From Pontibacter lucknowensis (GTDB lineage: Bacteria > Bacteroidota > Bacteroidia > Cytophagales > Hymenobacteraceae), in contig NZ_FTNM01000001.1 of NCBI RefSeq assembly GCF_900156415.1, positions 372,001 through 436,000 of the forward strand: a stretch of 64,000 nt of DNA, given 5' to 3'. Positions within the stretch are counted from its first letter, which is position 1. Every line of letters begins with the position of its first letter. The notes beneath the pieces are model-generated. The model had not been told where the DNA came from, searched no databases, and saw only the letters and a program-made list of their open reading frames with translations. Below are positions 10,131 to 49,501 of this stretch, piece by piece. Made by a program: the position numbers and the translations under genes.

Positions 10131-10135
10131 ATTTG

Positions 10136-10155: not shown

Positions 10156-10169
10156 TGCCTCTCTAGCTT

Positions 10170-21900: not shown

Positions 21901-22930
21901 AGCCCTGACTGAGTTTATAGTAGGTGGTGACCCTCTTCAGCTTCCTCCAATTTTTGATATTGCAGATGAGGAACTACCGGAAGAGCAGAAAGATGTCAAA
22001 GAAGAGAACATCTATACCATGGTTGGCTTAAAATCTTTCTCTGAAGATGATCAGAAGTTGATTCCTTTATATGGAGAGAACAATCAGATAAAGAACTTGT
22101 CTACACAATACAGAAGTATTGAGCCTATCGGTACACTCTTCAGCAAATTCAAGTACGGAGGTCTACTATCCCATGGCCGAGCCGAAGGGTTGGGAGGCAG
22201 CCCAATTCCGAGACCACTTCCTAAATACTTTCAGGACCTTGGTTTTAAACCTATAACAATTATTAGGTATCCTGTTAATACCTTCGATTCGCTTTATAAC
22301 CCGCAAAAGCTTAACAATAGTCCGCTACAGCTATATTCTGCCTTCCTTGTTAACGAACTAATTAAGAGATTTAAGGCGGAAGCTAGGGATTCGGAACAGT
22401 GGGACCTTGGGGTTATCTGTCCTTACAGATCACAAGCTTCTCTTATTAATAAGATGGTAGAAAACCATACAGTACCTAATAACAACGTTTCTATCATAAC
22501 TGATACAGTACATGGTTTCCAAGGCGATCAGAGTGATTTAGTGTTTGCTGTATTCAATCCAAGCTCTTCGAGAAGCCAGTATAGCTATTTCCTAAAGAAA
22601 GACTATATCTTGAATGTGGCTGTGAGCCGTGCAAAAGACTACTTAATATTATTACTACCTGATGAAAAAACGGAAGGAATTGAGCGTTTAAGCCTTATTC
22701 ACCAAAACTATTCTGGCAGTATTCTGAACATTATCAAGTCTCTGCCAAGTGAAAGCATTGCAACCCTAAATGCTGGTGATTTAGAAGCAAAACTGATGAA
22801 CGAGCAAGATTACTTCATTAAGAACAGCTTTACCAATGTACACGAATCTGTTAATATCTATGGGAGCCCTGTAATGGACTACATGGTGAGGCTAAGCGGC
22901 AACGCGATTGATGTTCATTATAAGAACTAA
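15989..22930 (+). CDS. Giant GHKL-ATPase / SF1 helicase fusion, 2313 aa
   Basis: Three regions are visible. Residues about 50-250 hold a GHKL (Hsp90/sacsin-type) ATPase: N-box EFMQNAVDAGSS (~78-90), NNGEAF (~110) and GKFGIGFK (~140). A central ~1500 residues has no motif I know. Residues about 1800-2260 form a UPF1/Dna2-like superfamily 1 helicase. Its motifs are GPPGTGKTTT (~1816), FDEASMI (~1944), GGDPLQLPP (~1978), TQYRSIEPIG, HGFQGDQSDLVF (~2177) and NVAVSRAKD (~2208). A lysine/glutamate-rich coiled coil lies near 1640-1665. Both ATPases look intact. It converges on the BREX operon with a shared terminator. It probably belongs to a nucleic-acid-directed defence function, which is inference from architecture and context. 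Confidence 0.85.
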   Translation: MNIKNIRQFRSFLKTDIRELTLDNRDEHFAGVRTEVDGRSQYGFFDFYHGYKEGANGKGIRGFLEGFLDMAKDGQAVYEFMQNAVDAGSSKFSLFWGKDEVDGQDYLLVANNGEAFTMEAVLSILNVGVSTKSEDNYTIGKFGIGFKLAHRLVGKENGLDELIDHNYGPILFSWKNGEVMSLPSLAVTPEITPVTQAYKIYSENGNKKAVVETDEPWLFKILVTNFPCQPENAVQPEIIRDTKYIEHQNVFSKSELQTMGRWVEKYKAFLQDDFQEGSLFFIRLGKGKQSSLEEENLEEGVRFSLAILNRIAQLSLGHPGLEEVNLNTSPIKPVDLQFESFVLEKGSEDFRKVRFGKTHDLTESEVDKENADSNIEILFGYTDHTLSRRVFTNAPNLYLFFPLSEEKHRLRFILHSNAFYKSSSRTYLQKGNLGEEGINERLFQVFAKCLKEKMLEWASAKDIESNSKFLEVYANLLLSNESDNPERVWINKPLWEPILAFLQGHIPLKSTWGNGVRLSHMAQSVKIKATALSIEQEDWLIQTIDWFHWDRKGNDELKTEAILKLGIEEYTIIDLLHVPGIYERINRWLDGNAANCELLLQEVETCLLLNPQTDDTFLENFSALQVWQFEDGYFTINQLAESGVYRERIFLSDKTDALKPFLEKAGFKLPTKSLSHYKLMFNFIQLKLQAKIKYIRNYAILVEVLSARFVHSTFTPAEKHEILKLLASNLRDSKEDRIEKLRELKLYANRLGEVVALKNLLKEAGWEWLSGWCVREEEYASELDEYITVSRDKLYEDIILCHWEAIMTQAVAAKGNYTIIFSDVKDLFQDTPKAATLSSRSILRLGHQFLKAEETTFYYSKTLLSFLEGEYKSLETVADKLGFGPIPSFELLPYYQESPFKLEEKNLDVTTPAEGVFVTADEAKALIKLCAAEDILLLNKNLLTTVPTGQELLLRDRPESCFQIATHDGSLVSYVQEYHKENLFPLPVQLLSVATPITHVKEDHLMRKLVDLCDYEDTVQLAALLNLCINGNSDIKTYLLQHLPKLSISLDKRIDVTSAAFLLVKLVLTLTEEEQKKEWLKKILVVEHEGQAYDLASLHLTGNDEVLFELESKAFKLSLSSILINEDAKSTRAISLLSEELAALEVAEKTALDRYFGLMGPVDKDYIFTTLHVSLENGLLKNASQLSFLLLYAKCYPAKLALSFYKVETKAGIVSLDNIALYAPDKPLPFLPSSVALLDAYAGVSSLLKLEVDKPFRLGSVQVLASPYLSGSDFHITGIATLDSLHAQEQLFLYLYKLWRQQDESAHNIYLTQNKVWEELIGFNPLLSVFAKAHVHPSETLPAHVLAWLEVQETSGGRDFLKALGVSFAGADIFKIRKYLTGDTPEEPANPHISHGQLILNSLQLLESSGTELAFGDRRATFLKSLFGKLQTIDMAQPLPLPVISPQTANTFSIKTVNSAFALEEAKLHKISDIQYPLQQLPIVADAPIVPLTLLDASFALKVAQKHHALAIDFDKIDEQTVAASTAEWERTFYTQWKENYPGHEIRVCIGGIPRIMQVNGRTCHHYVSGDVATIVDSGIILINSELNDKAVIRLIEQQQYFAPDALTALKLLFEQYEHNIHSYITQIQSDPNLKEEWKKLQEKAKEEAKKKQLAEEFGKAEKYSMAWFMNLLDLMVMAGGSGNSNDHEGRIVFSKLEPTSAGLKVISLKSPSTAISPNIELFTDFKATITYLDESHIQRSKKISIKGVSRKGQSVLALPTSEHELDGIQPAKVIKVEMSFQKVIDLLNRLTRAFRELGFENNYSLKKELSENINFIFGPPGTGKTTTISNLILNKIRGDEPKRILVLTPTNKAADVIVNRLREQSAEDDYVYSWLARFGFTTNTELLESGFVYDGNTFNYGSFTRCVVVTTIQRFPYEKVITGTNELGDEWTKLSDLPWDTIIFDEASMIMLPAIVYPMFKRKYKYDNQEALTEFIVGGDPLQLPPIFDIADEELPEEQKDVKEENIYTMVGLKSFSEDDQKLIPLYGENNQIKNLSTQYRSIEPIGTLFSKFKYGGLLSHGRAEGLGGSPIPRPLPKYFQDLGFKPITIIRYPVNTFDSLYNPQKLNNSPLQLYSAFLVNELIKRFKAEARDSEQWDLGVICPYRSQASLINKMVENHTVPNNNVSIITDTVHGFQGDQSDLVFAVFNPSSSRSQYSYFLKKDYILNVAVSRAKDYLILLLPDEKTEGIERLSLIHQNYSGSILNIIKSLPSESIATLNAGDLEAKLMNEQDYFIKNSFTNVHESVNIYGSPVMDYMVRLSGNAIDVHYKN

Positions 22931-23008: not shown

Positions 23009-23629
23009 TTATACCTCAACAAACCTAAAATAAGGATCCATCAACTGATAATCTTGAAGTTCATCTATTGATAAACTCTCTTTAAAAGACTCAATGTATA
23101 GCTGCTTGGATACTGGGAAAGTATAAGGCACGGGATCTAAGAACTCATATACCCCTAACTTTTTACGCTTGAAAAGACCTGCATCTAGGTACATAGGCAC
23201 TATACTGTATATAGCGTTATCGGTAGCTCTGTTACTGCCGTAGATACTCGCTATACTTTTCCTGATGGACTCCGTGCTTATGACGTCTTGCGCCAGGAAG
23301 TATTTCCCAAAAGTGCGCAGCACATCATATGAGAAAGGGAAAGCAGTATTGAGAAGTGCAATTATAATAAGATTCCGGTCGCTCTTCTTACTCAGAGCAA
23401 CCTGCAGTTCATCCCGGTTAGCAAGCAACCAATTGTTTAATGGATTACGCGTTATAATTTTATCTACAATTCTGGCAGCCTTCCTAAGCCTGTTCTCACC
23501 AGTGAACTCTAATCTTAGTTGCTCAATGATATAGTTACTTGTGTAGTTGCCGCTTAAATAAGTTTTTAAGGCAACTTCAAGTATGTGTAAAGGAATCCGT
23601 TGGTTTATATCTATCGTCTTCTTATCCAT
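23009..23629 (-). CDS. brxA: BrxA-like BREX protein
   Basis: 206 residues, last gene of the operon; it overlaps pglZ by 8 bases. The layout ILEVALKTYLSGNYTSNYI, RLRKAARIVDKIITRNPL and VLRTFGKYFLAQDVISTESI resembles BrxA/DUF1819 proteins, which are small helical DNA-binding proteins of BREX types 1 and 3. In type 3 systems brxA follows pglZ, exactly as here. Identification rests on position and general similarity, so the symbol is moderately certain. Unrelated to the bacilliredoxin gene at 60328, which shares the name BrxA. Confidence 0.7.
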   Translation of the reverse strand: MDKKTIDINQRIPLHILEVALKTYLSGNYTSNYIIEQLRLEFTGENRLRKAARIVDKIITRNPLNNWLLANRDELQVALSKKSDRNLIIIALLNTAFPFSYDVLRTFGKYFLAQDVISTESIRKSIASIYGSNRATDNAIYSIVPMYLDAGLFKRKKLGVYEFLDPVPYTFPVSKQLYIESFKESLSIDELQDYQLMDPYFRFVEV

Positions 23630-25085
23630 GGGTAATCTTTACGAAGGGGATCAGCACTTCCAGGATATGGCTGCCCCCGTGCGTAACAAGGCTTTCTTCG
23701 TTCGAAAAGCTTAATGTGTCTTTAAAATAAATGCCCTTACCATCGTAGGCAACGGAAGGTGCAATATCGGCATTTAGTTTAATAAAATCTTCTGCCAGCC
23801 ATTGGTCAGAGTACCCTAAATGACGGGCGCTGCGGCTACCGGTTTTAGTAGTGCCTAATTTTTCTCTGTCTTTTAGAGAGCGCCAGCCTTGTGCCTGTAT
23901 GTTGCCGTGGTCAGTGGTCAGGAAGAGGATGAACCCAAGCTCTAGCAACGTATTGATAGCATTACTGATTTTCTCTTTTGCAAGCCAGTTCTCTGTCAGG
24001 CTTTTCAGATCAACATAGTCGGAAGAGCTGTGCATTTTGTCATCCAGCTCCTTAAACACAAGTGCATACTTTGTTACCTTATCCAAGTCAATTGGCTCTA
24101 CTGTATCATGACTATACCTGATAGAAGTCGGGCTAATTCCTTTTCTCTTCCAGAAGCTATGCCACAGATTTTCTTCATTCTTTGGTTTCTGCTCGTAGCT
24201 AGAAGTTGGAGCATCGCCTCGAAAGATAGCTTGTCTTGACAATTGGGTTATGGAGGGTATCCAGGAGTAAGTAACTCCCTCCTCCAACTTCAGACCATCT
24301 TCAAGGCTGTCGCGTAGCAACTGGTATTGCCAATAGGCCATACCATCGACCACAATGAGCGCAATTTTGTCTTTAGTGTGTTTGAATGATAAGTGCGGCA
24401 GGATTCTGGAAACTACCTGGGGCCGTTTAATTGGGCTGGAATTGAGCGATGACTTAAAAGAAACTGAAAGCTCTTCCTGAAATGATGTGTTTGCTTGGTT
24501 CACAACTAGCCATACTTGCTCAGCTTGGGCTGTACCTACTGTCTGTACTAGCGCATCAGACAACAGCTCAATTACCTGATACCAATCTATAGGTATAGTG
24601 CCCAGCAAAACTTCGGCTTTTTGCTTAAAAGCACCTAGGTCAAATGAATTAGCCGTAGCCCTAAGGGTAGCCAAATGGTTTTCTGTTTCCTGCTTGCTTA
24701 AGTTTGTTAATGGCTTGTTAGCAAAGAGTAGATTCAGGTCTGAAAGGCTACAACCAGAAATGAAGTTAAAGTTATATTCCGGGAAATAATCTGCTAAATG
24801 AAACACCCTGTACTCGCCTTCAGAAGCAATGTCTTCAAGTATGGCTTCCAGGCTGCTGATAAGGTATACAGTCTTATCTGCTTGCTGGTCTGTAGCTTTG
24901 TAGCGTAGTTCGAAATCTATGCGCAGGTCAATCCCTTGCTTATCACACAGCCTAATGCTATAGGCTTTCAGCGCCTTTTGTACTTCAGGCATTCGTAGAA
25001 AGCCATCAGGGTTACGAACTAATATTAGTCGCTTAGGTGAGGCGAGAAACTCTTCCGCAATATGGTTTACAAAAGCATTAGCCAT
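23622..25085 (-). CDS. pglZ: PglZ, alkaline-phosphatase-fold BREX protein
   Basis: 487 residues. PglZ is the one component common to all BREX types. The metal-binding alkaline-phosphatase-superfamily signatures are visible: IALIVVDGMAYWQYQLL (~243) and ILFLTTDHGN (~390), with HSFWKRKGISPTSIRYSHDT between. N-terminally, RNPDGFLRMPEVQKAL and LRIDFELRYK match the PglZ N-domain. It overlaps brxHII by 8 bases upstream and brxA by 8 downstream, so translation is likely coupled. Somewhat short for a PglZ but with no sign of truncation. Confidence 0.9.
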   Translation of the reverse strand: MANAFVNHIAEEFLASPKRLILVRNPDGFLRMPEVQKALKAYSIRLCDKQGIDLRIDFELRYKATDQQADKTVYLISSLEAILEDIASEGEYRVFHLADYFPEYNFNFISGCSLSDLNLLFANKPLTNLSKQETENHLATLRATANSFDLGAFKQKAEVLLGTIPIDWYQVIELLSDALVQTVGTAQAEQVWLVVNQANTSFQEELSVSFKSSLNSSPIKRPQVVSRILPHLSFKHTKDKIALIVVDGMAYWQYQLLRDSLEDGLKLEEGVTYSWIPSITQLSRQAIFRGDAPTSSYEQKPKNEENLWHSFWKRKGISPTSIRYSHDTVEPIDLDKVTKYALVFKELDDKMHSSSDYVDLKSLTENWLAKEKISNAINTLLELGFILFLTTDHGNIQAQGWRSLKDREKLGTTKTGSRSARHLGYSDQWLAEDFIKLNADIAPSVAYDGKGIYFKDTLSFSNEESLVTHGGSHILEVLIPFVKITHG

Positions 25086-27858
25086 CTATCCGGACACTTA
25101 AAAGGTGCTTCACGCCAGGTATAACCTTCTTGCTCGCTTTAAATTCTGCAAGCCACTTATCGTGCTCAGCCTGCAATCTTTTCAGCTTAGAGAAACGGAT
25201 GTTCTCTATACCTATTTTGTTGATCCGGGAGGCCTGAAATTCGAAAGACTTTACACGTTTGGTTCTACGGGCTTCCATCATGGCACTCATGTCAGCTTCC
25301 AGGTTTTGGAAGGCATTGAAATGGTAGCTCCTCAGAACCTCTTTTTCCTGGGTTATCAGCGATTCTATACCTTCAGCGCTGCAAACATCGACCAGATCCA
25401 GCTGATGGTTTCCAGAAAGTATTCTATTCCAAATGTCGTTGGCGTATGCAGCATACATCTTGCCATTATCGGCTACAAAATAGCTATGATAAATCACTTT
25501 ACGTTCGGCACTATTTTGAGCAGAAATCTGCCATATACTCCAGATACCAGGTGTTTCATCGTTATTGCGCGACCTCAGCACAGGTATACCATGGGTATAG
25601 TTATACTCATTTATGTCGCTGAGAATACGTCTGATGGTATCGTGCTGTAAGGTAAGGTGCTCTACGCCTGGTTCGCTCAGGGCTAGTTCCTGCTCAAAAG
25701 TCACACGCTGCTTAAGCCCATTAAGCTGTATATCATAGATACCTGCCAGGTTTCGCTCGACTTTACCGTTGTGGATGGCGCAATACTGTACCAACAAGTC
25801 TTCCAGCCAAACAGGTAGTGGGCTGTGCTTTACATCTGCGGCTTTCTTATACTCTATTTCGCTTTCCTGTACTTTGGGCAGTATACCTTCTGTGCTTTGG
25901 TAGTCTCTTAGCTTGCCCTTAATTTCATTAAGCCACTTATCACCAGCAAACTCAAACTTGGTTGGGTCAAGCAGGCTTTGTAAATATAGCTTGTTTACCT
26001 TTTTCAGGTCTATGGCAGAATCCAGCACGTCGGATGTTTTGTCTATACCTAACTGCTCTATGATGTTAGTAAGCTTCTCCTCTATGACTTCGTACACCCG
26101 CTGGTCTACGCTATTATCGGTGAGCATATTGTAGGCTTTCACCTTATGCTTTTGTCCGATACGGTCTACCCTGCCTATTCGCTGCTCTATCATCATAGGG
26201 TTCCAGGGCAGGTCGTAGTTGAAGATGATGTGGCAGAACTGCATATTGAGTGATTCGCCGGCAGCATCAGTGGCAATCAGTATCTGGGCCTGGTTGCGGA
26301 ACTTGCCTAAAGCTGCTTTTCGCTCATCCAGCTCCTGACTACCATTAATGATAGCACACCTATACCCTCTTTCCTCCAGCAACTCTTTTAGCATCTTTTG
26401 GGTGGTGCGGAATTCAGTAAAGATGATTGTCTTCAGATCAGGATTGCTATACTCTTGCTGGAGCACTTTATACTTGCTGATGAAGGCTTCCGCTTTAGCA
26501 TCTGTTTCCACCCTCAGGCACTCTTGCGCTTGCGCTATCAGTTGCTGTAATAAACTATCCTCATCTACTAATGCCCCAGCGCTGTTCGCATACACTCCTT
26601 CCAGATCAAAGGTATCTAACGGCTCATCAGCTGTTGCATCTGATTCGGATTGGTAATCTTCCAGCTCATCGTCTTCAGCATTTCGCAGCCTTTCCAGCCT
26701 TCCTTGCATAGCCGATAAAATGGCTGCCGTAGAGCTACTAACCAGCCGCTGAAACAGGATCATGATAAGACCTGTTGCCTGGTTATTGGTGCGTCTGGCT
26801 GTGTTAAAGCCTTTGATCACATAATCGGTAACGGCATTGTAAAGAGCTTTCTGCCTTCTGTGCCGTTCATCGTCCAGGTATACATCAAAGCGTTCGGTTT
26901 CCCTTTCGTTAAAGAGCTTGTTGCCTTCGTAGTCTACTGCCAACCTCTTCTCTGTTCTAATCACGTATGGCTCCAGTTCTGCTATTTCAGGCAGCTCTTC
27001 GCTTGCAAAAGCATCTGAGTCGAGCAGCTGTAGTATTCGTCTGAAGTGGTCTGACTTGCCCCGGTGTGGTGTTGCGGAAAGTAGAAGCGCATTAGGTACG
27101 GTATTGCAAAGCGCCTGGGCCAGCAAATAGCGGGAAACAAGCTGATTGGCTCCTCCCATCTTGTGTACCTCGTCTATTACCACCAGGTCGAAATTAGCAT
27201 TCAGCACCGCTTCCATGCGGTACTTATTGTACTCGTCTATCCGCTCTTGTGGCCAGCCTTGTCTTCGTTCAAGCGGCTTTAGGGCATCGGTAGACACGAT
27301 GATCTGGTTGTGTTGCTCCCAGAAGTTAAATTCCTGATCGGCGTTGATGTTGGAAAAGGTGCGGGCAAGGGATGTAATCAGCTCCGAATCGTAGATGTGG
27401 AACACTTCATTGAAGTGCTCTTTTAGCTCACTTTGCCACTGCAGCATGGCCGACTTAGGCACGATGACCAGAATGCGCTTAATATCGCCTCGCAGCTTAA
27501 GCTCTTTTAGGATAAGACCTGCCTCAATGGTCTTGCCCATACCTACCTCATCGGCTAACAAAAAGCGGTTTTGGGTAGACTGCATTACCTTCTCCAGCAC
27601 CAGTATCTGGTGTGGCAATGGGATAAGACTGCTTTCGTAGGGGGCCAGTATGTTCTTCTTGGCTACCTCGTCTTTTATCTTAGCTGCAATGGCTATGAAA
27701 CGAAGGTGTGCTAAAGAAAAATTGGAAGAGCTGTGTTCCAGCTCTTCCAATGCTACTTGTTTAAAATCGTTATTTTCCAGTATTCGTATCCAGGCAACCT
27801 GTTCGCCAAAAACCTCTTTGGTGCCGAGTACTTCAACAGCTTTTCCTTTATAAAGCAT
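25078..27858 (-). CDS. brxHII: BrxHII-type SNF2 helicase
   Basis: 926 residues, SF2/SNF2 (RapA-like) DNA translocase. The DEXQc lobe shows LPHQILVLEKV, LADEVGMGKTIEAGLIL (~100), VVIDEVHKMG (~227) and LLLSATPHRGKSDHF. The helicase C lobe shows TIIFTEFRTTQKML, IATDAAGESLN and EQRIGRVDRIGQ (~559). This helicase type follows the methylase and precedes pglZ in BREX type 3 and is related to DISARM DrmD. The gap to pglXI is 2 bases and it overlaps pglZ by 8. All helicase motifs look intact. Confidence 0.88.
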   Translation of the reverse strand: MLYKGKAVEVLGTKEVFGEQVAWIRILENNDFKQVALEELEHSSSNFSLAHLRFIAIAAKIKDEVAKKNILAPYESSLIPLPHQILVLEKVMQSTQNRFLLADEVGMGKTIEAGLILKELKLRGDIKRILVIVPKSAMLQWQSELKEHFNEVFHIYDSELITSLARTFSNINADQEFNFWEQHNQIIVSTDALKPLERRQGWPQERIDEYNKYRMEAVLNANFDLVVIDEVHKMGGANQLVSRYLLAQALCNTVPNALLLSATPHRGKSDHFRRILQLLDSDAFASEELPEIAELEPYVIRTEKRLAVDYEGNKLFNERETERFDVYLDDERHRRQKALYNAVTDYVIKGFNTARRTNNQATGLIMILFQRLVSSSTAAILSAMQGRLERLRNAEDDELEDYQSESDATADEPLDTFDLEGVYANSAGALVDEDSLLQQLIAQAQECLRVETDAKAEAFISKYKVLQQEYSNPDLKTIIFTEFRTTQKMLKELLEERGYRCAIINGSQELDERKAALGKFRNQAQILIATDAAGESLNMQFCHIIFNYDLPWNPMMIEQRIGRVDRIGQKHKVKAYNMLTDNSVDQRVYEVIEEKLTNIIEQLGIDKTSDVLDSAIDLKKVNKLYLQSLLDPTKFEFAGDKWLNEIKGKLRDYQSTEGILPKVQESEIEYKKAADVKHSPLPVWLEDLLVQYCAIHNGKVERNLAGIYDIQLNGLKQRVTFEQELALSEPGVEHLTLQHDTIRRILSDINEYNYTHGIPVLRSRNNDETPGIWSIWQISAQNSAERKVIYHSYFVADNGKMYAAYANDIWNRILSGNHQLDLVDVCSAEGIESLITQEKEVLRSYHFNAFQNLEADMSAMMEARRTKRVKSFEFQASRINKIGIENIRFSKLKRLQAEHDKWLAEFKASKKVIPGVKHLLSVRIDG

Positions 27859-27860
27859 AT

Positions 27861-30506
27861 CTATACACGGGAACTAGCAATGTCGTAGAACTGCAACAGC
27901 ACTTCGTCTTCCATCAGCAGGTTGCTAGGAATACTATCCCCTACTTTCACAATGGTTTGGAAGTCTTTATTTTGGTAACATTGTTTGAAACCGGCACGCA
28001 AGGCTTCTACTCTGGATTCTTTGATCTTTCCTTTTGGTTTATATGCTTGCTCTTTATAGGCTTCGAACTGCTTGAGCAAACGCTTAGTGCGTAGTTTTTC
28101 CAAGTCTACTTCGTTTTCTGGGTCAGCTACGTACCAGTTGCCAGCATCGTCTATTAGAAAATTTTCTTGGAGTATAGCTAACAACTCAGGTATAATATCG
28201 CCTTTGCGTACACCGGCCAGAGCTTGCATCCATTTAGGTTGAATTTCTTGGTAAGTTTGCGGTCTTTCCTGTAATTGATTCTTTAACCAAAATACACCAT
28301 CCTGCTCCGACGACACCAAGATAGAAAGCTGCACGAAGTTTGGAACTTCAGCTTTCTTTCGATCGTACTCTTGCACTTGCTCATTTGTGAAGAACATACC
28401 ATCCCGCTCAATAAAACGATCTTTCAACGCTTTCTGAAAAGCACCTGCATCAATAGGCACAGGTAAACCTCTCTGGACATAAAATGCAATTAATCTATCA
28501 AAGAGTATTTTAGGATTTCGTTCAATTATAACAGAAGTTGAATTTTCTTTTACCAAGTGCACTGGCAAATGAAGTAAATGCTCTTCTACAAAATCCCATA
28601 CACCTACATCAGAATATTGATGTTTCTGAAAGCTTTCGTTAAATTCTAATGATGGTTTATAGCAAGAAATTATAAGGTCTTGTCTCACCCCTGTGAGAGA
28701 GGAAATCGAACGCATACCTCCTTGTTTTTTGTCTAGTGCAGTAACACTTGCAATTACAAACCCAGACTGCATCAAAGCATTCTGAATCGTATTCCAAACA
28801 GCAGCACTCGTATTCGAGAATTCAACAGTCATCCATTTATCGTGTTTTAAAATCCTATAAAACTCACGAAATGAGGATAACATTAAATTGCCATAATCTA
28901 TTAGAGTTTTCTTCTGAGATCTATTCTCAATTGCTTCTTTCTCATTGTTTGTGTGAACCTTGAGCCATGATTCCCAAATGAAATTTAACTCAGAGTACAT
29001 AATGTTCGCACCAAAAGGGGGATCTGTGAATATGTAATCCACAGAGTTGTCTTTCAAGCCTATATTCGTAGATGAACAAACTTGTATAGCACCATTGGCT
29101 TCATTTATTTCTTTCTTTGCATTTATTAAGCTCTTTACTCTACTTTTGAACTGCTCTAGAATCGAGGTTTCAATGGGTATGGAAGGTATATGAATTGTAC
29201 CCTTCATTATCCCAGCATTCCAGCCACCGCCACCATAAAAAAAGTTTTTAATGTGAATACGATTCATGAGAGATGATCGCTGAATCATACCTGTTAATAA
29301 AAATTTTAGATGAAGCGGATATTTTGACTTTTCAATCAATCCATTCAGGATTGATAAGGCTCTCAAGTTTCTTGACGTAAAATACTGATGTACGTATTCA
29401 ATTCCTGCTCTTTTAGGTTCAGAAGTCTTATCGCCAGGCAGGATTTTGTTTGTTGGTATCCACTCAGTAAATGGCTTATTACTTATTTCTTCCAATAAAT
29501 CTAAATCATCCTGTGCTACCCTTTTTAGAATTGTTTTTCCTTGCTTAGTTTTAATCAGTACAGGATATGATTCTCGCTTTGTAACAGGGTGCTTAACATC
29601 ATTGTCAAATGTTGTAATTAGTTTGTAATTGAGATCCTTTTTAGGACTTTCATTACTACAAGACGGACATTCAAGTATATCTTTAAGAACTTTATTATCA
29701 TAATCTATTGCAACATCCCAGTAATTCATTTCTGCACTACAGTTATTACAAATTAGAATATCACTCCATATTGCGTAGTCAAATTGTATCTTCTTACCCT
29801 CAAAAATAGTGTGGTACATCCATCCTATCTTTTCTTCTAACTCTTTTTCAACAATTTGGCATTCATTATATAATTCAACTAAATCAACTTTAGAGTTATA
29901 GCAATAATTAATGAATGTAGCAATAGGTGAAAGATCATTACTAATGAACCTACGTTTGCCCCAAATAATATCTCTTTCAGCTACTTTTGCGAGTCTAGTT
30001 CTTATTGTTTGTCCTTTAGTCCCACAAAGAGTAGATGCAATTCCGGTCATTCCAGTTCCCGCAAATCCATCGAACACTATATCCCCAGGTTGAGTATAGT
30101 GCAAAATAAATTTCATTATAGCAGGGTGCGGTACTTTTGTGTGATAGCTATGCGCATCATATATAGGGTTCTTTTTACTTTCACTTACATCTTTAGCGTA
30201 AGGCACATCAACTTCAAATTCGACACTTCGCTTGCCTTGTATTTCCAAGTCCTTCTTCTCCTCTTCCCATACTGCAATGAAGTCATTTAGCCAAGGGTTT
30301 GGACAGGCAGTATAATATGGTGGATCAGAAAGGTTAATAATATCTTCATCCTCCCCAATAGGAAAACCTTCTAGCTGCTTCAAATCGGGCAGTTTCTTCC
30401 GCAGCTCATTACGGAAATACTCCCTACGCTCTCCTTCAGAGTTGAAGGTTTTACCAAGAACTGTTACTGTTTTGTTTGTTTCTATTTCTATACCTAATTG
30501 ATCCAT
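27861..30506 (-). CDS. pglXI: PglXI-type DNA adenine methyltransferase
   Basis: 881 residues, the modification component of BREX type 3. A DPPYYTACPNPW motif (~60) precedes the SAM-binding FDGFAGTGMTG (~143), and a second catalytic-like TDPPFGANIMY lies near 492. A zinc-ribbon with two CxxC pairs (ICNNC ~252, ECPSC ~282) is inserted between them. The C-terminal third has no motif I recognise and may read the target sequence. It presumably marks host DNA by N6-adenine methylation. It starts 8 bases after the RecD-like gene and ends 2 bases before brxHII. The stretch at 28.5-30.3 kb is visibly more AT-rich than the flanking genes. Confidence 0.88.
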   Translation of the reverse strand: MDQLGIEIETNKTVTVLGKTFNSEGERREYFRNELRKKLPDLKQLEGFPIGEDEDIINLSDPPYYTACPNPWLNDFIAVWEEEKKDLEIQGKRSVEFEVDVPYAKDVSESKKNPIYDAHSYHTKVPHPAIMKFILHYTQPGDIVFDGFAGTGMTGIASTLCGTKGQTIRTRLAKVAERDIIWGKRRFISNDLSPIATFINYCYNSKVDLVELYNECQIVEKELEEKIGWMYHTIFEGKKIQFDYAIWSDILICNNCSAEMNYWDVAIDYDNKVLKDILECPSCSNESPKKDLNYKLITTFDNDVKHPVTKRESYPVLIKTKQGKTILKRVAQDDLDLLEEISNKPFTEWIPTNKILPGDKTSEPKRAGIEYVHQYFTSRNLRALSILNGLIEKSKYPLHLKFLLTGMIQRSSLMNRIHIKNFFYGGGGWNAGIMKGTIHIPSIPIETSILEQFKSRVKSLINAKKEINEANGAIQVCSSTNIGLKDNSVDYIFTDPPFGANIMYSELNFIWESWLKVHTNNEKEAIENRSQKKTLIDYGNLMLSSFREFYRILKHDKWMTVEFSNTSAAVWNTIQNALMQSGFVIASVTALDKKQGGMRSISSLTGVRQDLIISCYKPSLEFNESFQKHQYSDVGVWDFVEEHLLHLPVHLVKENSTSVIIERNPKILFDRLIAFYVQRGLPVPIDAGAFQKALKDRFIERDGMFFTNEQVQEYDRKKAEVPNFVQLSILVSSEQDGVFWLKNQLQERPQTYQEIQPKWMQALAGVRKGDIIPELLAILQENFLIDDAGNWYVADPENEVDLEKLRTKRLLKQFEAYKEQAYKPKGKIKESRVEALRAGFKQCYQNKDFQTIVKVGDSIPSNLLMEDEVLLQFYDIASSRV

Positions 30507-30514
30507 TGTGCTAC

Positions 30515-33500
30515 TTAGCTAAGTGCTTTGATAATTTTGTTAATATCGTTGCTGAGAGTGCCTCCTTCGTAGGTGGTCAGCAACTTGCCCGGGAAGTGTT
30601 TGTTGTACCATCGCTCTTTTTCTTCCCAATGCGCTTTGTATTTCGGCAGGTCAAGCCGTCCCACATGCTCCAGGTAATACTCTTCTCCTCTTACCATCAC
30701 AGTAAAGTCAGGCAAGTAGAAAGAGCCATCTGGCGCAAACAGTGGTTTCTCATACCTAAATGGGATATTCCTCTCTGTCAGCATATTCGCAATGATCACC
30801 TCAGATTTAGACCGTACCATGTACTGAGAGAGCGTGGCATGAATCTTACCTTCTTCATACCAATCGTTCATCACCAGCCACTCTTTTGGAAGCGGCTTAA
30901 ACTCAAATAAAGAAGAGTTAATTCTCGAAAGACTGTTGGCTTCTGGCCGTGTCAGCTGCAAAAAGGCCCCTATATCCTGCTCTGCAAAAATAGTAAGCTT
31001 TGTCTTTGCCCGGGTAATGGCGGTATAAATTAGCTCCTTTGAAAGCAGTGCTTTCTTGTTCTTCGGCAAAACCAGGTATACCCAGTTAAATTCACTACCC
31101 TGTGACTTGTGTACCGAGATAGCATAAGCCAGCTCTAGGTTATTCACTGGTTTTTCTTCCGGTAGATTCCGCTTATATCCTTTCTCAGTAACATAATTAC
31201 CAATTTCTTTGCCCATTGGTATGTGGGCGTCTCTGCTTTCTAGGTTAACCACAAAGCGCTGCACCCTAAAATTTGACCAGCCTGTTTTACCCTTATCAAA
31301 TCCATGGGGTCTGGTAAAACCTAATTCTCCATTAAATATTTGGATCTTCTCGGTTGTTTTGGTCTTAGGTAAGTAGGCGAAAATCGGATCTGATTTGGTT
31401 CTGTTACGGTATTGAATTACCTTATCGAAAAGGCTTATACCATCCAGAAACTGACGATTCTCTACTTTAATTTTATTGAACTTGCTTTGCAGAAAAACAT
31501 TTAGCGATTCTGTGCCAAACACCTCAGACCGATAGGGCGAAATCACCTGGAACTTGTCAGCTTTTCTATCATCTGCATTATCAGGATGTTCAAAAGCTTT
31601 GTTCAGTAACTCCCAGTAATGTACTTCGTCGTAGGTCAAGTCATACTCTGCTTCCAAGTCTTCCACCAATGTTTGGAACATGATGTTTTTCAGCTCCTTT
31701 TCATTTTCCCAGAACTTAACATTCAAGTCTTTCAAGTCACCGGTGAAGTCTAGTTCCTGTATGTGCTTTAATAGATCAACAGTTACTGCCTTTTGCTCAG
31801 CCAAATCGCTTAGCTCATTTTCATCAACCTCCCCATCAACAGCGGATATTTGTTGCGATTGAATGAAAGATGAAGCCAGATCCAGTATACCTGTTCCTCT
31901 TCCTAGCAACTTGTTTTCCATCTGGCGCAAGTTCACTTTCAATTCACCTTTATTCGCATCATCCAGCCAATTAAGCACATCAGAAAAAACTTTTCCTATA
32001 CCTATTGGCGGAAGCTGGTTCGGGTCACCAACCAAGATAATGCGCTGCACGGTGTTCCAGTTAATGGCTCTGAACAATGTAGCCATAAGCGTCTGATCTA
32101 TCATAGAGCACTCGTCTATGATAAATATGCGCGTATTCTCTTCCTGCCTACCTCCTTCTGGTTTCAGGGTAAAGTTGTTATTCAGCCAATTCAACCCAGA
32201 CAAGAAGGAGTGAATGGTTTTCGCAGGCTTTTGCGTTCGCTCACGCAATCGATCCGCCGCTTTACCCGTAGGAGCAAGCAATAGGAATGATGTTCCCTGT
32301 CCATGGGCCTTCTCTATACCTTTGATAATGGATTTAATGATGGTTGTCTTACCAGTACCAGCGCCACCGGATATGATACTTAGCCCCTTGTTAAAGATTT
32401 TTTCACACACCTCAGCCTGGCCTTTCACGGCCTCCTGGTAAACTGCAGGGTTCTGTTTGGCAAGCTCCGACTTCGCATCATATAAATAGTCGAACCAGTT
32501 TTTTTCAGTAACCGGGCTCTTAATGTTACCAATTTCCTGCTGCGCCATTTCCCGTATTCTGGCTTCTATGAACCGTTCATCTGCAAATACCTGGTTCAGA
32601 TATAGGTATAGATTTCCGTTAGCATCCTCTCTCCTATAAATAGCCTGATCAAGCTCAGCCGCATATGATTTAAAGTTTCTGAGCGTGAATTCAAACTTTC
32701 GCCAGTCACTCAGGAAAGTAACGTGCTTGTTAACCTTGTCCAGAATAATCTCGGCTGCTGAAAAAGTGTGTGAACCAATCCCTTTCAACTGATTGACACA
32801 AAGTGCTCGGAAGCGAATTGGGCTACCCGCTGTAGTAAGCTGCTTTAATCCCATGTCGGGTGGTGGCAGCATACCATGGTCAATTTTTGAGAAAGAGATT
32901 TTATCATCCGGATCATCGCCCACGTAACTCTCACTCAACAGGTATGGATTTTTAACAAGCTCCTCTAAAGAGCAATAAAGTCCATTCTGCGCTCTGTTCT
33001 CAGATAAAATCTTTCCTATCTGATCTTCTGTTAATTCGAAACGAGGAAGAATATCGAATAGTAATTCTATCTCAGCTTCTTCTTTGCTAGCCAGTAAGTC
33101 AGAAGCATTGCCCAGCTGGATCTGATCTAGCGTTACCCCCTCAATATCCTCATAATCCAGAAGCAAAGATTTTATTTGCTGGTAAGCTTCTTCTTCTTTG
33201 TCTATGGCTGTCTGCTCCTTAAAGTATTTGATTAGTTCAGGGAGCTTTAGATAGTTGAGCACATGGGGTAATCCAGGATAGCGGCCTCTGTTATGCCAAA
33301 GCTCTGCCAGTAAGCTTTGCAACCAGATACGTCTCAAAGACCAATCTTCGGAGTCATCTTTCAGCTCATTCTCCAGTACATCAACAATCTCAAGCGCACG
33401 CTCTACAATCTCTAAGGCATCGTCATCGGTTATATGACGCATGGCATACTTGAAGTTCCGATCATTCTCTGGAAAGAAAGCAATTTTCCGAAGGGCTTCC

Positions 33501-34186
33501 TCATTATCCTTATACCTGTGGTATGGTATCCGGAATCCTTCTTCGGGGTAGTTAGAAGTAATGGGAATTTGCCACACGAAAGCTCCTGCATATCTTTTAC
33601 GCTCTTCAGCAGTAGCTTTCTCGTACTCCATAAACTCACCGACCTTCTTAACCCGGCTAAGGCCAACAATTACGTAGTTCTTCGCATCATCCTGGCTAAG
33701 AGGATTGCTATAGTTACTATAGTAGAAAATAAGCGATGACTCTTCCTTTACCTGATTGATAAAGGCCTTTACATTGCTTATTCTTTTATCGTAGTTAAAA
33801 GTGCCGTCATCATTCTTGTCACCTTCATTGTACATCTCCTCATAAGGCCAAATACTGATGGTAGAAGGAGGCATATCCCACTGCCTTACTTCAGCATTTT
33901 TATACCATTCTGGTGAGGTAGTTTCTGCTTTGATCGTCTCCTTACCAAAAGCATTTATACTGAAAGAACATGGGGGTATATAATTGTTATGAATAGAGCT
34001 GCACCCTCCTCCGGCATACTTCACGCATTGGGTAGCTTGTAAGTGCTTCTTTTCGTACATCCCACCCGGGTACGAAAACTGCCCTGTACAATGAACGTTG
34101 GCCTCCGGGTCTTGACAAACCTTCCCGTTCCAACCATCGTTGTGCCACGTCAAACGGGCTGAAATATGCTTTCGGTTATTTCTCAT
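30515..34186 (-). CDS. RecD-like helicase with N-terminal Cys-rich domain and C-terminal nuclease
   Basis: 1223 residues from the ATG at 34186, which overlaps the brxC stop as ATGA; a start at 34213 is possible but would overlap brxC by 31 bases. Three parts are visible. The first is an unusual N-terminal Cys/His-rich domain (RLTWHNDGWNGKVCQDP, then CxxG and Cys-Gly motifs). The second is a RecD/SF1B helicase with GGAGTGKTTI (~607), FIIDECSMI (~690), GDPNQLPPIG (~719) and ISVHKSQGSEF (~1025). The third is a C-terminal PD-(D/E)XK-like nuclease: RSKSEVIIANML (~1124), FYLPDFTV (~1158), YYLEHVGRLD (~1170). This gene is not part of the canonical six-gene BREX type 3 set. Its tight coupling says it works with it. 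Confidence 0.85.
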   Translation of the reverse strand: MRNNRKHISARLTWHNDGWNGKVCQDPEANVHCTGQFSYPGGMYEKKHLQATQCVKYAGGGCSSIHNNYIPPCSFSINAFGKETIKAETTSPEWYKNAEVRQWDMPPSTISIWPYEEMYNEGDKNDDGTFNYDKRISNVKAFINQVKEESSLIFYYSNYSNPLSQDDAKNYVIVGLSRVKKVGEFMEYEKATAEERKRYAGAFVWQIPITSNYPEEGFRIPYHRYKDNEEALRKIAFFPENDRNFKYAMRHITDDDALEIVERALEIVDVLENELKDDSEDWSLRRIWLQSLLAELWHNRGRYPGLPHVLNYLKLPELIKYFKEQTAIDKEEEAYQQIKSLLLDYEDIEGVTLDQIQLGNASDLLASKEEAEIELLFDILPRFELTEDQIGKILSENRAQNGLYCSLEELVKNPYLLSESYVGDDPDDKISFSKIDHGMLPPPDMGLKQLTTAGSPIRFRALCVNQLKGIGSHTFSAAEIILDKVNKHVTFLSDWRKFEFTLRNFKSYAAELDQAIYRREDANGNLYLYLNQVFADERFIEARIREMAQQEIGNIKSPVTEKNWFDYLYDAKSELAKQNPAVYQEAVKGQAEVCEKIFNKGLSIISGGAGTGKTTIIKSIIKGIEKAHGQGTSFLLLAPTGKAADRLRERTQKPAKTIHSFLSGLNWLNNNFTLKPEGGRQEENTRIFIIDECSMIDQTLMATLFRAINWNTVQRIILVGDPNQLPPIGIGKVFSDVLNWLDDANKGELKVNLRQMENKLLGRGTGILDLASSFIQSQQISAVDGEVDENELSDLAEQKAVTVDLLKHIQELDFTGDLKDLNVKFWENEKELKNIMFQTLVEDLEAEYDLTYDEVHYWELLNKAFEHPDNADDRKADKFQVISPYRSEVFGTESLNVFLQSKFNKIKVENRQFLDGISLFDKVIQYRNRTKSDPIFAYLPKTKTTEKIQIFNGELGFTRPHGFDKGKTGWSNFRVQRFVVNLESRDAHIPMGKEIGNYVTEKGYKRNLPEEKPVNNLELAYAISVHKSQGSEFNWVYLVLPKNKKALLSKELIYTAITRAKTKLTIFAEQDIGAFLQLTRPEANSLSRINSSLFEFKPLPKEWLVMNDWYEEGKIHATLSQYMVRSKSEVIIANMLTERNIPFRYEKPLFAPDGSFYLPDFTVMVRGEEYYLEHVGRLDLPKYKAHWEEKERWYNKHFPGKLLTTYEGGTLSNDINKIIKALS

Positions 34187-37100
34187 TTCAGTACGATTCT
34201 GATTTTTTCCCACTCTTTACCCTTGCTTACCTCATCAATGTAGGCTTTAAATGCCGCAATAGCTTCATCAGGAGTTAAAGGCTTGTTGAAAGTATTTTTC
34301 AAGGACTCGGTACTTAGCTCTACTTTCTGAAGGCCTTTCTGCAAGCTGCTGATCGTGTTCCTGATCTTTAGTGCATTCTGCTTGTCTATCTTGAGGTTAC
34401 CAGTTTTAAAGTCATTGAGCATCTTAGCAGTAGGCGCATCCAGCAAATCGTGCTGCTTCTTTACAATCGGATCCTCCAGAATATCTTTTAAATTGGTTTC
34501 CCACTCTTCGAGCAACAATTCTAATTCTGCGCGTAGCTCTTTTACTGTAGCTACTGGCTGCCCTACATACTCATGTGGGTTAAAATCATGGAAAGGCACT
34601 TCGAGAATAGTTGCTTTGTTTACTGTCGGGTCAGCAACTTTTAACTTGCTTATGCGCTGGATCAGGCCCTGGTATTGTGCTGTAGACAAAAAGTCCGCCT
34701 CCTGCAATATGTCACAGATCGCTTTTTCATCAGAATCAAACAGAGCCTGCTTCTTTGTATGCTCCGCATCACTGATTCTGTATTTCAGATACAGCTTTAG
34801 ATACTCTTCCGCATATTGTGTTTTCAGTTGCTCTAGCTCATTCTTATAAGCAGCTATAGTAGCCGGATTACCGCTTGCCAGTTTTTCGCCAAGCGCAGCA
34901 ATAGCAGTTGATATTTGAGATTTTAAGGCATCATCCACAACGTACTGCTTGCATTGCTGCAAATAGTGTATGTCAGTTTCAAACTGCTTTAACTCTTCCA
35001 GCTGCTTTTCTACTTTTTCAATTAGCGGCTTTGCTTCCAGTATTCTTTTGATGTCATCAACAGAGAACTGGAAGTTCTTCATTTTAGCCTCTGTAGAGTA
35101 GTTGGCTACCTTGTCGCAGAAACCAGAGAAGGCTTTAAAATCTCTACTCATCTTAGCCGCCTCGTCGTCAGAGATGATTTCCACTCCTTTCAGGTGCAGC
35201 CCTCCTTTGATCTTATTCTCGGCTTTTACGGCCCGCTCCGCCCATTCCTTGGCGGCATGTACCAGCTGCACATAGGTATTAGGGTCTTTCAGCTGCTTGC
35301 TTAGGTCTTTACCCAACAGCCCAACAAACATTTCCTTAAGTGCGGCTTCATTCAGTCCCTTAGGCTCCTTAATATGAGTAAAGGCAAAGAAATCCTCTTG
35401 AACCAGGTTCTTAAGTTCGTGCAGGTTACCTGAATTAATGGTTTTGCTTGATGAGATATTGATCTCTATCTCACCTAAGGCAGCTAGTGTAGCCAGCACC
35501 AGGAATTCTAGTTCTGCTTCTACTCGGAAGTCGCGGGACACCCAAAGGTTAGTTTCTAACCAAATACATTCCAGTATTTCGTCGCGGTTTAGCACCTTGC
35601 CTTCCCCTTTGTCTTTCAACATTTTCAACACGCTCTTGGCGTAAGGGGAATGGCTGTAATCTAGTCCACCCGGCACATATAGCCCTAGACCGTTCAAAAT
35701 TCCCTCTCCGTCTCGGTTTGCTTGCTCCGGATTGCTAATTTTAAACAGCGCCTGCTTTATTAGGCGTAGATAATTCTCTTTTGCTACTGGGCTGATCAGT
35801 TGACTAAACTTTGGATAATATGGGCTTTCTTCAGAAAACCATTGCTCTAGCACAACAGAAGCTACTTCCGAGAAAATACGTTCTTTCGTTGCACCGGCAC
35901 CTGGTAGCGTATACCCATTAAGGGGTAGTTCTTTGCCTCGGTAATCTACCTTGGTAACCTGCAGGTATTCCTGCTCAAAAAGATCACGGGCTTTTTTATT
36001 AAGCTCCTGTATCTTTTGCTTATAAATAGGCTTTTGTGAAGTATCTGCTCTTACTTCGAGTGCAAGTGCAGCGCCGTACTGTGTTACTGCTTCCCTAAAC
36101 TCGCTGGACAAGCCGTCCATGACAAAGTAAACTTCATCCTGCTCATGGTTGCGCTGCTTTTTCGTATCATCGAAAATAGGCATGAAGTACATATAGAAGT
36201 GCTGCCTCGGTTGGGTAGTAGACTTCTCGTTTGGATTGCCAAAGAAGATATAGCCTTCTCTGAAAGTTTTGTGCGATTTCCAGTCCAGTGAGTGCTCCCA
36301 TATTTTGAACCCATTGCGGTATGTATCGTGGTGCAGCGGTAGGTTTACTTCCAGGAACTTAAAGAAATATTCGTCTTTCTGAGCATCAGACATCGTGGCA
36401 GCATAGTCCCGGATCTTTTGATCAAAGTTTACACCGCCTTCAATTCTTAGATGGTACTCACCATTTTCTGGGTTTTTGTCAAAGTATTGCCCGGAAGTTG
36501 CAGTGATTAGCTGCTGTGCTGCAGCCCCCATTATATCCATTAGGAAATCACGGTCATCAGCTAATTTATCTGTCAAACACAGATCATCAACTAAATGCTC
36601 AGGGGTTGTGCCATTCTGCTTATTCAGATCGTGCTGCAGTATTTTTATAGCACATGCATTTGCAATGCGGGAAGCGATACCTTTCTTACTTGCTCTTACT
36701 CCAGTAAAGTGCGTTTCAATTTTATCATGAACAGTATCAGTTACTTCCTTCACTTTCCGCACATCTGGAATTGCCATCAAGTCCTGACTCGAGTTTAAGT
36801 CTTTCCAGTAGTGGTCATAAGTCAATAGTCCGGGGTTATCCTTTGGCACATCTTGCTCCAACAACTCTGAAAATTGATTCGAAAGGGTTTTCAGAATTTC
36901 TCGTTGGCTCTTACCGATTCGGATCCTCTCGAAGTTCTCGAAGTAGGTTGGATGAACGGGGAACAGTTCGATATAGTCTTGTGTGCGCCCATGCATATCG
37001 CTGAAAAACTTCAGGAAAGGGTCTAGGTGATCTTTGATCTGCTGCTTCTGGTGTTCCGTTTTTTGCAGCAGCCTATTTTTCACCACATACGACACATCAT

Positions 37101-37842
37101 CCTTTGTTATGGTAATGTCTTTATAGCGGTCCTTTACCCTCGACAGCATATCGGCAGCAAACTGAAACTCTGGCGAATGGTAGATCATTTCCTGTACACC
37201 GAACATAATCTTGAATTTAGACTTGTCCGCTGCTTGCCCCAGTGCCTGCAAAACCTGCAGGTCGCTGTTAAGTTTTGCAGGTTCACTTCTTCCCTTCAGG
37301 TAAGACAGCATCTCATCAATTACGATAAGCAGTCCCTTGTCTGGGTACTTCTCTTCAAACTCAGCCATCATCAGCTGAATTTTCTCAAAGTACGATTTAG
37401 GACCGTGACCGTCGAAGCTAAAGACCACACCCAGTTCTTCCAAGAAGGTCTCTAATTTGTAGGTAACAACATCCCAAAGGCTTTCTTGGTGGCCTAGTTC
37501 AAAACGCAGCACCTTATACTTGCCTGCGATGGCTTTTAAATTTTGTCGGGACTTTTCTTCATTTACAAGATCCAGCAGCTGCTCATTCTCAGCAATTAAA
37601 GACACCAGTGACATCAAGTGCGATTTACCGGTACCATAGTTTCCTACTACCTGAATGCCAAACGACTCACCTTCACGATTATAGTCTAGGTTTTTGACAA
37701 TTAGCGGCAGCAAAGCATCTCTCAGCGCCTTCGAGAAAACATAAGACCTGATGAGTGACTGTTGGTAAGCGGCTTCAGTAGTTCTGCTAAATTTAACTAC
37801 TTCATTTATAGGCTCGAACTGTATTAAATCTTTATACTTCAT
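34183..37842 (-). CDS. brxC: BrxC-type large P-loop ATPase
   Basis: 1219 residues from the ATG at 37842 (MKYKDLIQFEPINEVVKFS); an upstream TTG at 37860 is less likely. The Walker A GNYGTGKSHLMSLVSL (~66-80) and a Walker-B-like LLIVIDEMLSYLKGRSEP place it in the BrxC/PglY (DUF6079) ATPase family, a core BREX component. The C-terminal third is strongly helical (LEELKQFETDIHYLQQ, AAYKNELEQLKTQYAEEYL), probably coiled coil. It overlaps brxF by 11 bases and the next gene by 4. It probably assembles with PglX and PglZ on DNA. Confidence 0.9.
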   Translation of the reverse strand: MKYKDLIQFEPINEVVKFSRTTEAAYQQSLIRSYVFSKALRDALLPLIVKNLDYNREGESFGIQVVGNYGTGKSHLMSLVSLIAENEQLLDLVNEEKSRQNLKAIAGKYKVLRFELGHQESLWDVVTYKLETFLEELGVVFSFDGHGPKSYFEKIQLMMAEFEEKYPDKGLLIVIDEMLSYLKGRSEPAKLNSDLQVLQALGQAADKSKFKIMFGVQEMIYHSPEFQFAADMLSRVKDRYKDITITKDDVSYVVKNRLLQKTEHQKQQIKDHLDPFLKFFSDMHGRTQDYIELFPVHPTYFENFERIRIGKSQREILKTLSNQFSELLEQDVPKDNPGLLTYDHYWKDLNSSQDLMAIPDVRKVKEVTDTVHDKIETHFTGVRASKKGIASRIANACAIKILQHDLNKQNGTTPEHLVDDLCLTDKLADDRDFLMDIMGAAAQQLITATSGQYFDKNPENGEYHLRIEGGVNFDQKIRDYAATMSDAQKDEYFFKFLEVNLPLHHDTYRNGFKIWEHSLDWKSHKTFREGYIFFGNPNEKSTTQPRQHFYMYFMPIFDDTKKQRNHEQDEVYFVMDGLSSEFREAVTQYGAALALEVRADTSQKPIYKQKIQELNKKARDLFEQEYLQVTKVDYRGKELPLNGYTLPGAGATKERIFSEVASVVLEQWFSEESPYYPKFSQLISPVAKENYLRLIKQALFKISNPEQANRDGEGILNGLGLYVPGGLDYSHSPYAKSVLKMLKDKGEGKVLNRDEILECIWLETNLWVSRDFRVEAELEFLVLATLAALGEIEINISSSKTINSGNLHELKNLVQEDFFAFTHIKEPKGLNEAALKEMFVGLLGKDLSKQLKDPNTYVQLVHAAKEWAERAVKAENKIKGGLHLKGVEIISDDEAAKMSRDFKAFSGFCDKVANYSTEAKMKNFQFSVDDIKRILEAKPLIEKVEKQLEELKQFETDIHYLQQCKQYVVDDALKSQISTAIAALGEKLASGNPATIAAYKNELEQLKTQYAEEYLKLYLKYRISDAEHTKKQALFDSDEKAICDILQEADFLSTAQYQGLIQRISKLKVADPTVNKATILEVPFHDFNPHEYVGQPVATVKELRAELELLLEEWETNLKDILEDPIVKKQHDLLDAPTAKMLNDFKTGNLKIDKQNALKIRNTISSLQKGLQKVELSTESLKNTFNKPLTPDEAIAAFKAYIDEVSKGKEWEKIRIVLK

Positions 37843-38221
37843 AAGTCTGTTTGTATTCAAAACCTATCGCAGACAGGTCTATCTTCTTTCCGTGATGATG
37901 TGTAAGAAAGTAAAGGGTATTATTATCTATGTATCCTTTCCATTCCAAAATTAATGTGTTGTTTCTGGCATGATCTGTCAATAGGCGAGCAACATCAAGC
38001 TTTAGCTCTTCTTCAAGCAGAACACCGGGGTTACGGAGGACAATGAGGTGGCCAGCACTTTGTAGTAGTTTATCCACAAAGTCCTTCACTTTTAAGGCCA
38101 GTCTGGAACGACTGGGAAGTCCTTCAATATAGGCAGCTATTGTTTTTCCCAAATCAATAGCACAGCCTTGATTATCAATAAGGTTACCTGTAACAATCGG
38201 CTTATATATAGCTTTTTCCAA
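37832..38221 (-). CDS. brxF: BrxF-like protein lacking a Walker A motif
   Basis: 129 residues, first gene of the BREX operon, where type 3 systems carry brxF. BrxF is normally a ~150-residue P-loop protein. Here the C-terminal half (HLIVLRNPGVLLEEELKLDV, RLLTDHARNNTLILEWKGYI, DNNTLYFLTHHHGKKIDL) matches the expected Walker-B and C-terminal region. No GxxGxGKT can be found in the N-terminal half. It either is a diverged, non-nucleotide-binding BrxF or an unrelated protein in the same slot. Position is the strongest evidence. Confidence 0.6.
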   Translation of the reverse strand: MEKAIYKPIVTGNLIDNQGCAIDLGKTIAAYIEGLPSRSRLALKVKDFVDKLLQSAGHLIVLRNPGVLLEEELKLDVARLLTDHARNNTLILEWKGYIDNNTLYFLTHHHGKKIDLSAIGFEYKQTYEV

Positions 38222-41527: not shown

Positions 41528-41581
41528 TTTATGGTACTATTTTTATTATTTGTAATTTAGATTACCAATTTATGATAGATG

Positions 41582-49271: not shown

Positions 49272-49453
49272 TTCAATACTATGGTTTTAGCAATCAAAAC
49301 TATTTTATTCTGGCATATTAGCTTTTATAATTCCACCAAGATTAAATAAAGAACTCTAACTGCTAATTAAGTAGACGGCCCCACCAGTGTTAGCTGACGG
49401 TGCGCGCCTCTCCGTCGAGTAGCGCGAGGGAACCTCCCCCTCACGCCCTCACA

Positions 49454-49487: not shown

Positions 49488-49501
49488 CTATTATCCAACC
49501 T

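Follow-up and report, generated by a model that had tools for sequence, protein, structure and literature searches.

A type 3 BREX operon carrying a RecD-like gene

The DNA considered here is a 64,000-nucleotide stretch of the Pontibacter lucknowensis genome (contig NZ_FTNM01000001.1, positions 372,001 to 436,000), referred to throughout as the window. Its minus strand carries, from 38221 to 23009, the genes brxF, brxC, a gene for a RecD-like helicase, pglXI, brxHII, pglZ and brxA (Table 1). This is a type 3 bacteriophage exclusion (BREX-3) operon in which all six core genes are present in canonical order, with diverged BrxF, PglZ and BrxA proteins, and in which the interval between brxC and pglXI is occupied by an intact additional gene that overlaps brxC.

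Overlaps of 11 bases between brxF and brxC, 4 bases (ATGA) between brxC and the RecD-like gene, and 8 bases each between brxHII and pglZ and between pglZ and brxA were observed, together with gaps of 8 bases from the RecD-like gene to pglXI and 2 bases from pglXI to brxHII. The open reading frames, order, strand and coupling are as an initial annotation of this DNA had described them, the start and stop positions having been checked, and its assignment of the operon to type 3 BREX holds: profile searches match BrxC, PglXI, BrxHI/BrxHII and PglZ at 924, 1029, 864 and 165 bits, respectively. The brxC translation carries the Walker A motif GNYGTGKS. With the curated NCBIfam models the BREX-3 BrxF match reaches 49.4 bits against a cut-off of 50 and the BREX-3 PglZ match 187 bits against 250, and because both score below their cut-offs the two proteins are counted as diverged members. 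When the window BrxA, itself a weak PADLOC match, was used as query, relatives were found that likewise end operons in genomes G236 and G447 (72 and 82 bits).

Table 1. Features of the BREX-3 operon, the domains of the RecD-like protein and the flanking genes, in window coordinates
Feature	Coordinates	Strand	Details
brxF	37832..38221	-	129 aa, TTG start; in-frame stop shortly 5'; PADLOC BrxF 40.8 bits
brxC	34183..37842	-	1219 aa from ATG, DUF6079 ATPase; PADLOC BrxC 923.6 bits; PF19557 880 bits
RecD-like cargo gene	30515..34186	-	1223 aa, ATG at 34186; PADLOC PDC-S68 PDLC05066 1726 bits
N-terminal domain, predicted EVE/YTH-like (PUA superfamily) modified-base reader	33362..34186	-	residues 1-275
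RecD2-type N-terminal region	32528..33085	-	residues 368-553; winged-helix-like part 449-535
SF1B helicase core	30944..32419	-	residues 590-1081; K613, D691, E692, R754, R1059 invariant
C-terminal PD-(D/E)XK-like domain	30518..30817	-	about residues 1124-1223; E1129, D1160, E1173-H1174-x-G1176
pglXI adenine methyltransferase	27861..30506	-	881 aa; PADLOC PglXI 1029 bits; PF01555
brxHII Swi2/Snf2-type helicase	25078..27858	-	926 aa; PADLOC BrxHI/BrxHII 864 bits
pglZ	23622..25085	-	487 aa, short N-terminal part; PADLOC PglZ 165 bits; PF08665 54 bits (cut-off 25)
brxA	23009..23629	-	206 aa; PADLOC BrxA 29.5 bits (weak)
Gene facing the BREX operon end	15989-22930	+	2313 aa; PADLOC TmtA 672 bits
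CHAT-protease/TPR gene, TPR gene, ECF-type sigma factor	38438-43068	-	directly upstream of the BREX operon
Two group II intron matches with an open reading frame between them	49414-50921	-	open reading frame of 385 aa

Family and domains of the RecD-like protein

The RecD-like protein is a member of PDC-S68, a family already catalogued as a phage defence candidate and uncharacterised. The match extends over residues 6–1221 of 1223 and over profile positions 3–1199 of 1202. A chance open reading frame or a decayed copy is ruled out by this full-length match and by the retained motifs. No foreign composition was seen, the GC content of the gene being 43.1% against 43.5% for the window.

The motifs and the fold identify the protein as a RecD-type helicase of superfamily 1B (SF1B). 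Its nearest solved folds are those of RecD2 and of the RecD subunit of RecBCD, and the VIA-align rows leave residues 276–367 and the C-terminal domain largely uncovered. In NCBIfam the protein matches the RecD2 model TIGR01448 at a score below its cut-off. The RecD-like helicase named in the initial annotation is supported.

The same annotation had placed a PD-(D/E)XK-like nuclease at the C-terminus. The predicted order of elements in this domain is helix, three strands, helix, strand, helix, and E1129, D1160, E1173, H1174 and G1176 are present in all 132 aligned sequences. Two residues past E1173, where a lysine is usual, the position is hydrophobic, and K1190 is found in 131 of the 132 sequences. 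The predicted fold and the invariant residues together make a PD-(D/E)XK-like nuclease the likely identity of the domain, although a Pfam scan of the RecD-like protein gave no match for it.

The N-terminal 275 residues are conserved and, in the structure prediction, confidently modelled. When this domain was aligned with EVE/YTH domains in hhalign the scores were 58–69%, with decoys far below, falling to 34% and 23–27% at other settings and to below 1% in global mode. The Pfam tables examined held no EVE/YTH match for the domain, and a Foldseek search with its model returned no match at E ≤ 0.001. The reader-like domain has an insertion close to its start (33935–34150, residues 13–84) in which C24, C33 and C73 are present in 132/132 sequences and C62 in 107/132; the insertion may perhaps form a metal site.

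Cargo of the brxC–pglXI interval and distribution of the RecD-like clade

The coupling of the genes had led the initial annotation to regard the RecD-like gene as a fixed component that marks a distinct BREX subtype. BREX-3 loci were compared across plasmids, a class sample of 395 genomes and a phylum sample of 395 genomes; BrxC was found in 4 of the former sample and 18 of the latter, the window's genome being counted in each. The comparison comprised 22 loci in which brxC, or its end, is followed on one strand by a visible pglXI, a set that is not independent, since genus g248 supplies nine of these loci and L144 is nearly identical to L149. Left out were L132 (reversed order), L147 (no pglXI annotated), seven fragmentary BrxC places of the phylum sample, and L224 and L233, whose contigs end before pglXI; L224 carries an OLD-type HEC-01A ATPase gene and a DUF4276 gene (scanned) and L233 genes of equal lengths.

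The RecD-like gene lies between brxC and pglXI in one of the 22 loci, that of the window itself, while 15 of the others hold different genes and six hold none (L131, L144, L145, L149, L227 and L228). Schlafen AlbA_2 genes or pieces occupy the interval in 10 loci, as judged by Pfam in L130, L143 and L146 and by similarity in L220, L225, L226, L230, L231, L232 and L234. A 381-residue gene is present in L221–L223, identified as YhcG/PDC-S02 where it was scanned (L221 only), and L221 holds short pglXI and Schlafen-like pieces besides. The remaining cargo is a three-gene PDC-M64 set in L229 and a transposase in L148, where pglXI is in pieces. The brxC–pglXI slot of type 3 BREX is interchangeable. 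Several of the alternative cargo genes likewise touch or overlap their neighbours, and coupling by itself is therefore no mark of a fixed part.

Other features of these loci were recorded in passing. A second filled interval, between pglXI and brxHII, was seen in L227, L228, L230, L231 and L234; it holds an AriA-like ATPase gene in L227 (8305–10158) and an AbiU/AIPR gene with an AAA_21 ATPase gene in L228 (8329–11425). In L130 of genome G236 (6162–11898) two tandem pglXI genes stand in one BREX-3 operon, beside a gene for a 23S rRNA intervening-sequence protein. Type 3-like BrxC is concentrated in genus g248 of family f103, which accounts for 14 of the 18 matching genomes among the 395 searched.

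Protein clusters were then used to follow the gene more widely, the best 120 of 3075 clusters being taken for the RecD-like protein, the best 120 of 2261 for BrxC and the best 120 of 7997 for PglXI. Among the matches listed, 39 clusters (P0008–P0046) are at least 62% identical to the RecD-like protein; the full-length clusters beyond P0046 reach at most 53%, and the partial P0060 63%. In a tree of 132 sequences, 37 of the 39, those long enough, form one clade with a support of 1.0. An identical length of the longest contig of two clusters served as a proxy for linkage, and clusters with contigs of at least 7.4 kb were considered. Five of 31 clade clusters have a size that also occurs among the 119 lengths of close BrxC clusters, and four of 31 one that occurs among the PglXI clusters listed, against 0.08 and 0.09 matches expected, respectively, when the lengths were shifted at random. 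Together these are eight distinct BREX-linked clusters including the window's own, and so seven of the 30 others. The core genes themselves, compared as a control, gave 18 shared sizes for 99 BrxC rows, and the rates for the clade are of similar size. Among PDC-S68 clusters outside the clade, 0/49 match BrxC and 1/52 match PglXI. P0060 is likely a clade member counted outside it, and its 5.3 kb contig lies below the cut-off, which leaves the counts unaffected; the equal size of 5255 (P0084/P0192) was dropped as chance, being too short for both genes.

All eight linked tips fall within one 27-tip branch of the clade. A 9-tip branch and P0034 have no link, which may reflect either short lists or a real difference. 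Seen from the core genes the picture is the reverse: of the 18 sizes common to close BrxC and PglXI clusters, only the window's own belongs to a clade member. By this indirect evidence of equal contig sizes, the RecD-like clade seems to depend on BREX-3, and BREX-3 not on the clade. The five linked tips in the BrxC tree require four changes, as do the four linked tips in the PglXI tree. P0146, at a distance of 0.037 from the linked P0184 in BrxC, matches PglXI P0346 in size and no clade member.

These data bear directly on a new BREX subtype in which the RecD-like gene would be obligatory. The coupling of the genes and the recurrent linkage between clade and BREX-3 are what such a subtype would lead one to expect. 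However, 21 of 22 slots hold other genes or none, 17 of the 18 sizes common to close BrxC and PglXI match no clade member, linkage varies even among BrxC proteins that are close relatives, and the slot is interchangeable. We regard an obligatory role as very improbable, and neither the fixed component nor the distinct subtype is supported, in view of the distribution, the BrxC tree and the interchangeable slot.

Searches elsewhere are given here with their scope. At the cut-offs used, no further clade member was found in 99 genomes of relatives or in the class and phylum samples. Most of the matches from a profile search of genome contigs (best 80 of 588 relatives) were to the helicase core; about a dozen relatives matched over nearly their full length, at no more than 46% identity, and none of them was of the clade. 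On plasmids the best identity to the RecD-like protein was 45%, and viral contigs yielded four partial helicase matches for the RecD-like gene and none for BrxC.

Within the window the BREX locus adjoins another candidate defence gene, that with the TmtA match. The CHAT/TPR/sigma genes on the other side are a possible further conflict module and have no PADLOC match.

Relatives outside BREX, proposed role and known systems

Long relatives of the RecD-like gene, none of the window's clade, are present in 29 loci, which were examined for restriction-modification (R-M) neighbours; the R-M queries were few, so that the neighbour counts are lower bounds. In at least eight of the 29, the next gene, on the same strand and within 100 bases, matches an R-M query: it is type I-like in seven (L037, L127, L129, L134, L135, L152 and L156) and of type ISP in one (L112). 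Eight more have an R-M match within about 7.5 kb (L034, L035, L038, L067, L111, L113, L133 and L151), a weak match in L033 not being counted, and with these few queries 13 of the 29 have none within that distance. The gene order is hsdM, hsdS, an FRG gene, PDC-S68 and hsdR in L127 (Pfam) and hsdM, hsdS, PDC-S68 and hsdR in L134 (PADLOC and similarity). Relatives also stand inside type I operons in L037, L129, L135 and L152, directly before hsdR in L127, L129, L134, L135 and L152 and directly after hsdS in L037 and L134. The methyltransferases found beside the family are PglXI in the window, HsdM where the locus is of type I, and, on plasmids, enzymes of types ISP and III, all of which we take to be of adenine-methylating kinds.

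This pairing with several unrelated R-M systems is what would be expected of a general processor, that is, a helicase-nuclease for DNA ends (a RecBCD- or AddAB-like backup) that degrades BREX-stalled or broken phage DNA, its N-terminal domain binding only DNA or the BREX complex. The nearest solved folds and the invariant motor and nuclease-type residues are also consistent with such an enzyme. Plain end-processing would, however, have no need of a conserved N-terminal domain with an EVE/YTH-like signal, and we consider this explanation rather unlikely.

The neighbouring methyltransferases could alternatively mean that the EVE/YTH-like domain reads N6-methyladenine (m6A) placed by PglXI or HsdM, methylated self DNA then restraining or licensing the nuclease. 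YTH domains bind m6A, and the one fused to an archaeal McrB binds it in DNA, according to PMC7641849; the window's clade is tied to BREX-3. On the other hand, embedded genes of any kind commonly have R-M systems as partners, 13 of the 29 loci have no match to the few R-M queries within about 7.5 kb, and nothing indicates which base is read. A partner of the host mark is accordingly improbable in our estimate.

A self-contained defence gene that shares the transcription of the operon, with no functional link to BREX, is somewhat unlikely; it overlaps the other mechanisms and does not exclude them. The slot holds unrelated defence genes, and members of the family also accompany other systems or lack any R-M match in their vicinity. 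Moreover, PDC families were discovered by embedding, having been traced in PMC12988326 to the 'guilt-by-embedding' search of Payne et al. 2024. Against this, the nearest relatives form one clade that recurs with BREX-3, and the gene overlaps brxC; shared expression alone would fit both of these too.

On balance, we give about even weight to the reading in which the RecD-like gene is a PDC-S68 accessory in the BREX-3 slot that acts as a second DNA-destroying effector with a predicted EVE/YTH-like reader of modified bases. The mechanism with the best support is that of a backup effector, probably one that senses modification, acting beside BREX as BrxU is reported to act in type 1. In this scheme BREX (PglXI, PglZ, BrxC and BrxHII) would methylate the host and block unmodified phage DNA; the DNA of escaping phages with modified bases, or phage DNA that has stalled or been broken, would be bound by the predicted reader domain, the RecD2-type motor would then translocate, and the C-terminal domain would cut the DNA. 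A wider and more tentative proposal is that PDC-S68 constitutes a new class of modification-dependent restriction enzymes (EVE/YTH reader, RecD2-type helicase and PD-(D/E)XK nuclease), one clade of which was adopted by BREX-3 through a brxC–pglX port for interchangeable backup nucleases in types 1 and 3.

If this is correct, type 3 BREX would accept exchangeable second-line effectors through a port that lies between the genes for its ATPase and its methyltransferase, in the interval that holds a type IV enzyme in one type 1 BREX. PDC-S68 would gain a biochemical prediction, namely the reading of modified bases coupled with helicase-driven cutting, and what backs up BREX against DNA-modifying phages would become a directly testable question.

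As for the novelty of the insert, the family is already catalogued in PADLOC, but no text linking PDC-S68 to type 3 BREX was found. 'PDC-S68' occurs in no paper found by the literature search, 'S68' is absent from the main text of PMC12988326, and no text tying RecD to type 3 BREX was found in a search outside which most subscription papers and supplements lay. 'RecD' is likewise absent from the main text of PMC7641849 and, supplements aside, from that of PMC12839542, where the single mention of 'SF1' is in the title of a reference.

Compared with known type 3 BREX, the window shares all six core genes in order, as judged by PADLOC, Pfam and NCBIfam matches, and in plasmid loci with this gene plan the annotation names genes 'BREX-3'; it differs by the one gene added between brxC and pglXI and by a short PglZ. 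This protein has 487 residues in the window, as annotated in E. faecium, and 613 in G236 and G447. Within PDC-S68, to which nearly the whole protein conforms, members are likewise embedded in other defence operons; the window's clade is the one with BREX-3 links, whereas relatives outside it lie in or near type I, ISP and III systems or have no R-M match nearby. Relative to RecD2 and the RecD of RecBCD, the protein adds the N-terminal 275-residue domain and the C-terminal nuclease-like domain, and its RecD2 score of 276 bits is below the cut-off of 500.

Nucleases within BREX operons are described by Rakesh and Krishnan 2026 (PMC12839542), where Schlafen-type, OLD-linked and helicase-fused PD-(D/E)XK enzymes are read as auxiliary or backup effectors and the fused endoDNases are proposed as auxiliary restriction factors; the RecD-like gene is likewise placed. 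A parallel in position is BrxU, a type IV enzyme of the GmrSD family in the type 1 BREX of pEFER, which lies between brxC and pglX and is reported to give complementary protection (PMC8565348). BrxU is, however, an unrelated protein (DUF262/DUF1524) from another BREX type, and for the RecD-like protein recognition of modified DNA is a prediction. In architecture the predicted arrangement resembles the EVE-HNH and McrB-YTH enzymes, in which a PUA-type reader is joined to a nuclease (PMC7641849, PMC7897488); the motor differs, the RecD-like protein using an SF1B helicase of the RecD2 type.
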